From positions 1 through 37,399 of the forward strand of contig CANRPT010000011.1 of the NCBI GenBank assembly GCA_947632565.1: DNA of 37,399 nt, read 5' to 3'. A model generated the notes under the pieces. That model did no database searches. It had not been told where the DNA came from and worked only from the letters and a program-made list of their open reading frames with translations. This DNA is from an uncultured Bacilli bacterium. GTDB lineage: Bacteria; Bacillota_I; Bacilli_A; RF39; UBA660. Below, in pieces: positions 29,272 through 34,225 of the stretch (its first letter is position 1; each line of letters starts with the position of its first letter). Made by a program: the position numbers and the translations under genes.

Positions 29272-29399
29272 TTCGAATCCTCCCTTCGCCTATATCTAGT
29301 ATAGACTTGCTCCGTGTAAAAAACCTGATATTTCCGTTTAAATTACTAACAACTTAACCCGGTGTATCAGCAACCTCACACATCTAAGCAGCCACACAG
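29272..29399 (-). promoter_or_regulatory. Leader RNA of the S10 operon
   Basis: The untranslated region between the rpsJ promoter and start codon contains a GC-rich, hairpin-capable segment (minus strand GTGTGAGGTTGCTGATACAC, around 29358-29383, GTGT with ACAC) that stands out against AT-rich surroundings. It resembles, from memory, sequences ahead of rpsJ in other Bacilli and is a candidate for ribosomal-protein feedback control. Structure and ligand are not established here. Confidence 0.5.
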
Positions 29400-30433: not shown

Positions 30434-30835
30434 TTGGAAAACCAAGAAACACAAGAACAACAACTTTTTATTATTGATGGTCAATTGGTAGGATGCATTT
30501 TATATATTCTTTCTTTAGGGATTTCTATCGTTTTAATTATCAATCAAAGAAAAAGAGCCAATGGGAAAGAAGGATTCCTTACTCCCAAAGAATCCCAAAT
30601 TTTAGCCCTTTTTAATAAAATTTTTATTTTACTATTACTATTCTTATTTTTATATTTAGATTATGAAGCGAAAGATCTAGCGGAAAATACAGGTCAAGAT
30701 ACTTCTGCCTTAGAGCTTCAAATTCTAGCATCCATCATCTCACTCATCCCAATATTTATTGGATTATATGTCGTCATCACAGATTTTTCTAATACCAATC
30801 TACAAACAGCTGAAATCGAAAATCCATTTGCATAA
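30434..30835 (+). CDS. Small hypothetical membrane protein, 133 residues
   Basis: I do not recognise a family. Three hydrophobic segments are visible (about residues 17-37, 62-82 and 99-121), separated by charged loops (RKRANGKEG; DYEAKDLAENTGQD). The start codon is TTG, preceded by GGGCGTGAT, which is a weak ribosome site, so expression may be low. It stands alone between the rpsD terminator and a bidirectional terminator shared with the convergent propeller gene. Nothing suggests a transport or enzymatic motif. Confidence 0.65.
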   Translation: MENQETQEQQLFIIDGQLVGCILYILSLGISIVLIINQRKRANGKEGFLTPKESQILALFNKIFILLLLFLFLYLDYEAKDLAENTGQDTSALELQILASIISLIPIFIGLYVVITDFSNTNLQTAEIENPFA

Positions 30836-30837
30836 AG

Positions 30838-30860
30838 AAAAGAGCTTTTTAGCTCTTTTA
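30838..30860. terminator. Bidirectional terminator
   Basis: A 9 bp perfect stem (AAAAGAGCT 30838-30846 with AGCTCTTTT 30851-30859) around a TTTT loop lies between two convergent genes and can end transcription from either side. Confidence 0.8.
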
Positions 30861-32747
30861 TCTTACCATTAGCGTTCTAAACTTCATATCTAGTTTAATG
30901 ATTTTTCCAAAATAATCTTTTCCATTATTTTTTGCTGTTGTAATATTCCCGTTTTTGCTATTACTATATCCTGCAATATAGATACTTACCCCATCGGTAT
31001 AAATTTCTGTTAAGTTATCATCATGACTTCCACCTAAGGCATCTTTCTTTTCCATATTTCCATTTAAGTCATAACATACTAAAATTCCTGCCATATATTC
31101 TTGGTTGGTATCTGTTTTTAATCCGGCATCTTCAGAAGTTGTATGTCCTACCACATAGAGTTTATTTTTATAAATGAAAATATCATTATAACGTTCAAAA
31201 TTACTTCCACCAAATGTTTTTTCAAAAATGATGTTTCCCTCTAAATCATATTTGATTAAAACCGCATCTGTATTATCTGTGTCACGATTATCATCATCTG
31301 TCGTTCCTTCCGACAAAATTTTCTTAGAACCAACTACATATAATCCATTATCCTGATATACAATATCAGATAATCCTAAGCCATCCGTATAACTATAATT
31401 CTTATGCCATTGATAAATTCCATTAGCATCATATTTTACGATATTACCACTATCAGAAGCATCTTTTCCTACTACATAGAAATTTCCATCTACTTCTACA
31501 ATTCCATTAAAGTTACCTGATTTGGTTCCTCCATGATTATTGTGCCAAATTTCATTTCCTTCTGCATCGTATTTGACGATAATTCCTCCACCAGTTTGAT
31601 GATTTCCTAATTCCATATTTGCATAAATACTTTGTCCTATGGCGATAAAGTTTCCATCCTGTGTTTGAATTACTTTATTAAATCTAGTATTAGTCAATAC
31701 ACTATAAAATTTTTCCCAAAGGATTTCTCCTTCTTTACTATATTTGATAATAAAGGCTTCTCTTCCTTCATTTTCTTGTTCTTCTTCACTAAATTCTCCG
31801 CTACCTACCACAATATAACCATCGGAAATGGAGATAATAGAACTAAAAGTAGTATTTATGCCTTTTTTATACATTTTTTCAAAGATAATCTTGCCATCTT
31901 TATCATACTTTATTAATTTACCCTTTTCTAGTCCCTTGGTATAGTCATTTTCTTTACTATATTTAAAATTACTACTTCCAACAGCTACAATGTCTTGATT
32001 ATCTAAGATTAAAGAATTCAAACTATCATAATAAACGGTATGAAATTCTCTCTGAATGAGTAAGATTAGAAGATAAATTCCTTCTATGAAAATAATGGTT
32101 ACACAAATACCCATGATAATCTTTAACCATTTATTTGTTTTGATAAAAAGAATTAGCTCTGAAGTATTTTTTTTCTGTTCTTGCTTGTTTTTTACTTTTT
32201 TCGATTTTGGCTTTTTCAAAAATTGAAAATGCTGTTTTTTTTCTTTTGGTTTTTTCTGTTCTGTTTTTGGTTTTGATACCGATTTCTTTTTTATTTTACT
32301 TTTTTCGTTTTTTTCTGTCTTTTTTTGTTTGAAAAAAGAAAATAATGGTTTCTTTTCTTTGTTTTCTTTATCTTTTTTTATTTCTGTATCTACTTTTTTA
32401 GGGGAAGATTTTTCCTTTTCCACTTTTAAATTCGTAACAGTACTAAACTTTGGTACTTTTTTTTCTGTCTTTTTGGTAGTTCCTTTTTTCTTTGCATTTG
32501 ATGTTTTTTTCTTAGAAACTTCCTTTTTTTCTATTACCTTAGAAAGTTCTTTTTTTCCAACCTTCTTCGTAGAAGCAGATTTTGCATTACTCTTTTTTTC
32601 TTTGGTTTGGTTGGTAGAATTTTTCTTTGGATCCTCTTTTTTCGATTTTTCTACTACTTTTTCATTTTCTTGGATTTTGGTCTTTTTTTCGTTTACTGAA
32701 TTCGTGACAGTTTTCTTTTTCGCATTTGTTTTCTTTTTGGCTGGCAT
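30858..32747 (-). CDS. Membrane protein with Lys-rich cytoplasmic tail and extracellular beta-propeller-like repeats
   Basis: The 629-residue protein has three parts. Residues 1-205 are a low-complexity tail rich in Lys (with Ser, Thr, Glu), starting PAKKKTNAKKKTV, with two short aromatic motifs (LFSFFKQKK, 135-143; HFQFLKKPK, 173-181). Residues 207-231 form one membrane span, and positive charge on the N-side puts the tail in the cytoplasm. Residues 240-629 are outside and consist of repeated units of the form IVKYDxxGNxxWxxxxGG...F..I....D..YVVG, resembling delta-60 or PQQ-type beta-propeller blades. It starts 14 bases after tyrS with GGGGGAG upstream and shares the Tyr T-box control region. 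No function is known to me. Confidence 0.75.
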   Translation of the reverse strand: MPAKKKTNAKKKTVTNSVNEKKTKIQENEKVVEKSKKEDPKKNSTNQTKEKKSNAKSASTKKVGKKELSKVIEKKEVSKKKTSNAKKKGTTKKTEKKVPKFSTVTNLKVEKEKSSPKKVDTEIKKDKENKEKKPLFSFFKQKKTEKNEKSKIKKKSVSKPKTEQKKPKEKKQHFQFLKKPKSKKVKNKQEQKKNTSELILFIKTNKWLKIIMGICVTIIFIEGIYLLILLIQREFHTVYYDSLNSLILDNQDIVAVGSSNFKYSKENDYTKGLEKGKLIKYDKDGKIIFEKMYKKGINTTFSSIISISDGYIVVGSGEFSEEEQENEGREAFIIKYSKEGEILWEKFYSVLTNTRFNKVIQTQDGNFIAIGQSIYANMELGNHQTGGGIIVKYDAEGNEIWHNNHGGTKSGNFNGIVEVDGNFYVVGKDASDSGNIVKYDANGIYQWHKNYSYTDGLGLSDIVYQDNGLYVVGSKKILSEGTTDDDNRDTDNTDAVLIKYDLEGNIIFEKTFGGSNFERYNDIFIYKNKLYVVGHTTSEDAGLKTDTNQEYMAGILVCYDLNGNMEKKDALGGSHDDNLTEIYTDGVSIYIAGYSNSKNGNITTAKNNGKDYFGKIIKLDMKFRTLMVR

Positions 32748-32761
32748 AATACTCCCCCATT

Positions 32762-33997
32762 CTATATTTGATAGACTCCAAGGTAGTATTTCTTTTTTCC
32801 TCTTCTTATGATAACATATTTTTCTTCTATTGCTTTAGATTTGGTAATTACCATTTCTAAATCTGTTACCTTTTCTCCATTTAGTGTAATACTACCACTA
32901 TTTAAGAATTCTCTTCCTTCTCTCTTACTAGTTACTATACCATGATTTACTAAAAAATCAAGTATATTTTCATCCTCTGTTATTTCAAAAGTTGGAACAC
33001 CATGGAAAACCTCTTCTATCTCTTTTCCTGTTAATTCTGATACCTTTCCATTAAATAATGTTTCACTTAAATGTAAAGCTTTTTCGTACTCTTCTTTGCC
33101 ATGAATATCGGTTATCATTTCTCTAGCAAGAGTTTGTTGTGCTAATCTTTTTTCTGGCATTTCGAAATGTTCTTTTTCGACTTTTTCTATTTCTTCTTTT
33201 GATAAGAAAGTAAATACTTTTAAATAGTGAATAACCATTTCATCATCTGTATTAATTAAATATTGGTATAATTGATAAGCAGAAGTTTTATCTAAATCTA
33301 ACCATAACGCATTTCCTTCACTTTTTCCAAATTTATTTCCATATTTATCTAAAATTAATGGCATCGTAAAACCATAAACATCCGTTCCACACTTTTTCTT
33401 AATTAAATCAATTCCCGTCGTAATATTTCCCCATTGATCAGAACCTTGTACTTGCATGATACAATGATTGTGTTCATATAAATATAAAAAATCATATCCT
33501 TGCATTAGTGTATAAGAAAACTCCGCATAAGTAATTCCCGTTTCTAATCTTCTACGGATAATATCTTTATCTAACATATAATTAATATTGATATACTTTC
33601 CAATATCACGAAGAAATTCTAGGTAATTATAATCTTTCATCCAATCATAATTATTGACTACGGTTGCTTTTCCCTCAAATAATTTGGTAATCTGATTTTT
33701 AATCCCTTCTAAGTTCTTTTCTAATACTTCTTTTTGGATGATTTCTCTTTCACTGGTTGGTCTAGGATCCCCAATTAATCCTGTAGCCCCTCCTACTAAT
33801 AGAATCGGATGATGTCCAGCAAGGGCTAATCTTTTAGCCGTAACTAAAGAAGAATAATGTCCTAAATGCAAACTATCAGCGGTTGGATCTGTTCCCCAAT
33901 AAAAAGTTATTTTTTCTTCATTTAGTTTCTTTTTTAAATCCTCTCCAGCAACATCTTTGATTAGACCTCTCCACACTAAATCTTCATATAAATTCAT
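32762..33997 (-). CDS. tyrS: Tyrosyl-tRNA synthetase
   Basis: The 411-residue class I synthetase has the HIGH-type motif in TADSLHLGHYS (HLGH), Tyr-binding YTLMQGYDFLYLY, QVQGSDQWGNITTG, a KMSKS-type loop KFGKSEGNA, and a C-terminal S4-like RNA-binding domain (ILDFLVNHGIVTSKREGREF, about 340-400). It charges tRNA-Tyr. A T-box leader directly upstream controls it. The next gene follows after 14 bases. Confidence 0.97.
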   Translation of the reverse strand: MNLYEDLVWRGLIKDVAGEDLKKKLNEEKITFYWGTDPTADSLHLGHYSSLVTAKRLALAGHHPILLVGGATGLIGDPRPTSEREIIQKEVLEKNLEGIKNQITKLFEGKATVVNNYDWMKDYNYLEFLRDIGKYININYMLDKDIIRRRLETGITYAEFSYTLMQGYDFLYLYEHNHCIMQVQGSDQWGNITTGIDLIKKKCGTDVYGFTMPLILDKYGNKFGKSEGNALWLDLDKTSAYQLYQYLINTDDEMVIHYLKVFTFLSKEEIEKVEKEHFEMPEKRLAQQTLAREMITDIHGKEEYEKALHLSETLFNGKVSELTGKEIEEVFHGVPTFEITEDENILDFLVNHGIVTSKREGREFLNSGSITLNGEKVTDLEMVITKSKAIEEKYVIIRRGKKKYYLGVYQI

Positions 33998-34009: not shown

Positions 34010-34225
34010 TTAAAAAACCACGAAAACATCATTAAGGACGAATCTTTCCGTGGTACCACCTTATTTTATAAGTTTCTGCTTATACACTTTATGACTATAA
34101 CGCGTTACCGATTTAACTCAGAATCTGTATTTCATCCATATGATTCTACTTACTTGCACCAACCGTAAGTTCTCTATTCAGAATTGATATTTCTTACTAA
34201 AATCCCTCTTCATTAAATATTACAC
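34010..34225 (-). promoter_or_regulatory. tyrS T-box: Tyrosine T-box leader (riboswitch) of tyrS
   Basis: On the minus strand the leader has an AGAGA element and a Stem I with GGTTGGTGCAAG, then the T-box sequence AAGGTGGTACCACGG (34048-34062). A terminator hairpin follows (CCACGGAAA pairing with TTTTCGTGG, ending in TTTTTT at 34012-34017). A TAC triplet in the 3' strand of Stem I (GAAATACAG) is the likely Tyr specifier. Uncharged tRNA-Tyr would stabilise the antiterminator. The gene it precedes agrees with the specifier. Confidence 0.92.

Follow-up and report, generated by a model that had tools for sequence, protein, structure and literature searches.

T-box regulated aminoacyl-tRNA synthetase operons (RF00230) include an arrangement in which a tyrosine-specific T-box and a transcriptional terminator precede tyrS. 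The locus described here has the same organization, but differs in carrying a conserved gene for a membrane-anchored β-propeller as its second cistron. We know of no T-box synthetase operon with a conserved membrane propeller in this position, and a literature search returned no report of a T-box/tyrS/propeller operon or of its combination with a Lys-rich tail. Such tails do occur on other membrane proteins: the Lys-rich C-terminal tails of YidC/Oxa1 proteins bind ribosomes, and the basic-aromatic effector domain of MARCKS binds lipid. The protein described here resembles the former in its disordered, Lys-rich cytoplasmic segment and the latter in having Phe within Lys clusters; the likeness is in composition only and no homology is claimed. 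For the propeller itself, the closest solved structure is the C-terminal propeller of CylK from Cylindospermum licheniforme (PDB 7RON, 7FH6). In CylK, the active site is formed at the interface between the propeller and an N-terminal Ca2+-binding domain, and blade-bridging Ca2+ sites have been described (PMC8916777).

The window, a stretch of 37,399 nucleotides from the 1.44 Mb genome of an uncultured Bacilli bacterium, contains tyrS on the minus strand at 32762–33997, encoding a 411-residue tyrosine–tRNA ligase (TIGR00234, E 1.2e-109; PF00579, E 1.6e-73). The tyrosine T-box invoked by the original prediction lies outside the span which that prediction covered, and it is real: a match to RF00230 was found at 34031–34219 on the minus strand (cmscan E 8.5e-19, 83.9 bits), with UAC (Tyr) as specifier. 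Since this score is below the Rfam gathering score of 93, a default scan misses the T-box; leaders of relatives score up to 113.5 bits. In an alignment of 17 leaders, the specifier, read by eye, came after a conserved GAA stretch. The sequence and its predicted fold show an intrinsic terminator at 34013–34054 on the minus strand (CCACGGAAA...UUUUCGUGG followed by U6), the stem of which reads CCACG...CGUGG-U6, and an antiterminator around GGUGGUACC that, as read from the sequence, competes with it. The region 34010–34075 folds at −15.6 kcal/mol (z −2.3). The leader thus combines a covariance-model match ahead of a synthetase gene, a Tyr specifier and a competing terminator.

Behind tyrS is a 629-residue open reading frame with an ATG start (30858–32747, minus strand), encoding the propeller protein. 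The gap between the tyrS stop codon and this ATG (32748–32761, minus strand) is 14 nt long, as had been predicted, and contains a Shine-Dalgarno sequence, GGGGGAG, at 32752–32758. Neither a terminator nor a promoter was found in the gap by pattern scan, folding or inspection of the sequence. At the other end of the gene, a hairpin (AAAGAGC-loop-GCTCTTT, 30838–30858) with T-rich flanks reaches up to the gene end. It is absent from the terminator list of the pattern scan, but judging from its sequence and fold it is likely a bidirectional terminator between the propeller gene and a convergent reading frame, ending the transcript. The convergent frame (30434–30835, plus strand) encodes a hydrophobic protein of 133 residues, for which no Pfam or NCBIfam model scored above its cut-off; it adjoins rpsD and is kept in part of the genus. 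Farther along, an S10-Clostridia ribosomal protein leader (RF03136, 37.8 bits; 29286–29394, minus strand) precedes the S10 operon.

The propeller protein consists of three parts, all encoded on the minus strand: a Lys-rich, disordered tail of residues 1–205 (32133–32747), a single transmembrane (TM) helix, a putative signal anchor, at about residues 207–233 (32049–32129), and a seven-bladed β-propeller at residues 241–628 (30864–32027). In the full-length AlphaFold2 model, most of residues 1–196 had a pLDDT of about 30, followed by a helix (196–236) that holds the sole hydrophobic span, in agreement with the hydropathy profile. When the TM helix and propeller were modelled without the tail, the mean pLDDT rose to 91.2 with a pTM of 0.89, and the helix was at 2–32. 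By our own count, the 28 main strands at 241–628 make up seven blades of four strands each. No Pfam or NCBIfam family reached its cut-off for the 629-residue protein. The original prediction of a tail of about 205 residues, one membrane span and propeller-like repeats was therefore borne out. Its placement of the propeller on the outside is supported as far as charge goes: the positive-inside rule predicts a cytoplasmic N-terminus, from which we infer an extracellular propeller.

Up to the start of the hydrophobic core (residues 1–212), the tail is 36% Lys and 11% Asp plus Glu, has no Arg, and carries a net charge of about +52. It had been likened to histone H1, with which it shares the high Lys content and the disorder, but the comparison goes no further: Ala (2%) and Pro (4%) are scarce over the same residues, unlike in H1, there is no Pfam or NCBIfam family match, and the tail is tethered to a membrane. 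Phe and Trp sit among the Lys residues in basic-aromatic clusters (KKPLFSFFKQKK, KKQHFQFLKKPK). In a proteome control comprising 717 reading frames from about 810 kb of the genome, no other protein had a Lys-rich stretch of similar length ahead of a single TM helix; the next longest tails of this kind had 41–54 residues. Lys-rich cytoplasmic tails as such are not unique in the genome, however, since a signal-peptidase-like protein (Peptidase_S24, E 6.7e-8; L180:9443–10150, plus strand) has a C-terminal tail with 55% Lys over 60 residues, richer than that of the propeller protein and containing KKKSFFAKLKEKLKRKKK. Ribosomal protein L20 (L187:15739–16293, plus strand) is likewise extended at its C-terminus by a Lys-rich stretch, which ends in a Rho_N/SAP-like domain.

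Many propeller chains can be aligned to the structure, at Z scores of about 29–43, with CylK by far the closest (Z 43, 2.7 Å over 353 residues, 21% identity), compared to about 31 or less for other propellers. CylK was also the only sequence match (E 5e-14) when the family profile was compared with solved chains, and virginiamycin B lyase aligned at Z 29. These matches raise the possibility that the protein works as an enzyme outside the cell and is related to CylK or to propellers of the virginiamycin B lyase type. However, while the seven blades are common to both, the N-terminal Ca2+-binding domain that shapes the CylK active site (PMC8916777) is absent, its place being taken by the disordered tail and TM helix in the AlphaFold2 models. 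Furthermore, the nearly invariant positions of the propeller, read by eye, consist mainly of Gly and structural residues, among which no catalytic set is apparent, and we consider a catalytic role quite unlikely. A few orthologues weakly match the SBBP (E 4e-4) or PQQ_2 (BamB-like; E 1.5e-8) repeats of Pfam, whereas the protein in the window reaches neither cut-off.

Most homologues also follow tyrS. The propeller orthologue lies directly behind tyrS in all 22 close orthologues, from 17 genomes of the genus (the present one included) and five others of the family. Within the genus, the gap between the two genes is 14–27 nt. Wider gaps occur in G058 and G025, where the T- and AT-rich sequence could carry a promoter. 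In a more distant set of 20 orthologues, 13 immediately follow tyrS, two come after it with one gene in between, and five are elsewhere. A T-box was found before tyrS, or before the gene just ahead of it, in 33 of the 34 linked loci that could be tested (21/21 in the close set and 12/13 in the distant set). The persistence of this arrangement across close and distant orthologues indicates that the Tyr-T-box/tyrS/propeller operon is old in the family. At a threshold of E 1e-20 or better, matches were found in 82 of 386 family genomes, a count that includes some matches to other repeat proteins only, and in 30 of 150 genera. The proteins form an undescribed family of TM-anchored, seven-bladed propellers that recur in second place in tyrS operons with a Tyr T-box.

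Several variations on the operon were observed. In several genera, a protein starting HTEYEVRVLEI... and CYTH-like by eye only is encoded between the T-box and tyrS (L150:2681–3226, L149:2715–3296, L151:2633–3196 and L153:3511–4050, all on the minus strand), so that a Tyr T-box operon may comprise three genes. In G135, tyrS and the propeller gene are separated by an inserted reading frame for a secreted-looking protein of 645 residues (L138:1640–3577, minus strand). Three family members encode additional, divergent TyrS-like proteins (27–39% identity), at G033:C9:44423–47009, G032:C60:11973–13169 and G030:C17:15415–16551.

The connection to tyrosine can be broken from either side. Fourteen family genomes without an adjacent propeller orthologue have other genes after tyrS, often in the same slot between tyrS and rpsD, and no T-box was found in the DNA fetched around any of the five unlinked propeller orthologues. 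Judged from these arrangements, tyrosine control appears to be dispensable. The Tyr content of the propeller (7.1%) is somewhat above the mean of the genome sample (5.2%), falling between the 75th and 90th percentiles; as a reason for T-box control it was rejected as not striking, and we count it, to that extent, against the explanation that we favour below. The conservation of the linkage over many genera also counts against that explanation, in that tyrosine control could matter.

The tail has a much narrower distribution. It is present at 121–216 residues in all 17 genomes of the genus, and the two genomes sampled from genus g43 have one of about 255. In g136, a Lys-rich tail of 74 residues is found on a propeller that is not linked to tyrS. 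All remaining orthologues that were read have a stub of 6–31 residues that is basic in most cases. When “long tail” is mapped onto the propeller tree, three changes are needed, at least two of which are forced by well supported branches, which shows that the tail was gained late, and either more than once or gained and lost. The original prediction had treated the polycation, the propeller and the tyrosine supply as one unit, and this did not hold: many orthologues without the tail still follow tyrS, g136 has a tail without the linkage, and the five unlinked propellers have no T-box. Homologues lacking the tail, which had been named beforehand as evidence against the idea, are thus common. The composite is better described as a layer that particular lineages have added to an older pairing of propeller and tyrS.

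These observations bear directly on the proposal that the protein is a surface sensor or scaffold tied to tyrosine, with a tail that links the cell exterior to the state of translation by binding nucleic acid or ribosomes. The Tyr T-box and the position next to tyrS, both conserved in many genera, and the strongly polycationic tail speak for such a protein, but tail and linkage are separable in both directions, the unlinked homologues have no T-box, and Pfam and NCBIfam searches found no nucleic-acid-binding domain. We regard the proposal as unlikely. A stronger version, in which the disordered polycationic tail of a surface protein induced by tyrosine starvation tethers ribosomes, mRNA or the nucleoid to the membrane under an extracellular propeller receptor, is very improbable; if it were true, it would represent a tRNA-controlled tether between envelope and translation that is specific to the lineage.

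The selection analysis addressed whether the tail is maintained. In six pairs of close relatives, dN/dS was 0.25–0.42 for the tail and 0.08–0.22 for the propeller, indicating a real protein segment under weaker constraint. Several motifs (KEKAxKKSRQAN, xYISPSQLE and KKVPKFSTVTN) persist across subclades by eye, with SSPSQLE as the g43 counterpart of the second. The conserved tail motif AREKAIEKSRQVQK occurred only in the same protein among the genomes searched, and the tail alone, used as query against the genome, returned no further copy. The tail might nevertheless have no specific partner and be a low-complexity outgrowth of a short basic “positive-inside” stub, kept rich in Lys only because topology, solubility and A-rich codons loosely constrain it. 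The graded lengths of the N-termini, from stubs of 6–31 residues to 74, 121 and 255 residues, fit this, as do the Lys-rich stretches in other membrane proteins of the genome and the dN/dS of the closest pairs, where the tail exceeds the propeller roughly three- to fivefold. On the other hand, dN/dS is well below 1, a tail of at least 121 residues is kept in 17 of 17 genus genomes, and the short motifs persist. A partnerless tail is a possibility to be taken seriously, but we think it rather improbable. Going by its dN/dS and its distribution, the long tail is a derived elaboration under selection.

Of 54 Phe and Trp residues in the tails, 48 are found within 80 residues of the TM helix, compared to 22.7 expected (with related sequences counted separately). 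This clustering near the membrane fits lipid binding at least as well as nucleic-acid binding. In the subclade of G002, G006, G009, G015 and G012, however, Phe and Trp are absent from the tail except right at the membrane, which weakens a lipid-anchor reading there.

Our preferred explanation, held tentatively and at somewhat less than even confidence, is that the propeller is a surface binding module, the tail an inner-leaflet anchor, and tyrosine control a consequence inherited from the position behind tyrS. The product would cross the membrane once, in type II orientation (N-in, C-out); its TM helix would serve as the Sec signal anchor, and its polybasic N-terminus would fix the orientation. 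Outside the cell, the propeller would bind a protein or glycan ligand non-catalytically. Inside, the tail may serve as a fuzzy anchor, held electrostatically to the anionic inner leaflet or to another anionic surface, with the membrane-proximal basic-aromatic clusters mediating contact with the leaflet; it may also touch ribosomes or nucleic acid. Uncharged tRNA-Tyr would raise the tyrS and propeller transcripts together, assuming co-transcription across the short gap. On this explanation, expression would rise because the propeller gene sits behind tyrS, and no role of the protein in tyrosine metabolism would be required.

What is new here is a previously undescribed protein family whose place in its operon is both unusual and conserved, and whose polycationic tail is confined to particular lineages. 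The family spans many genera of uncultured gut Bacilli. The recent addition of a long, disordered polycation to an otherwise stable membrane protein provides a natural experiment on the function of such tails. If the linkage to tyrS is functional, these bacteria would have an envelope protein under the control of tRNA-Tyr charging.
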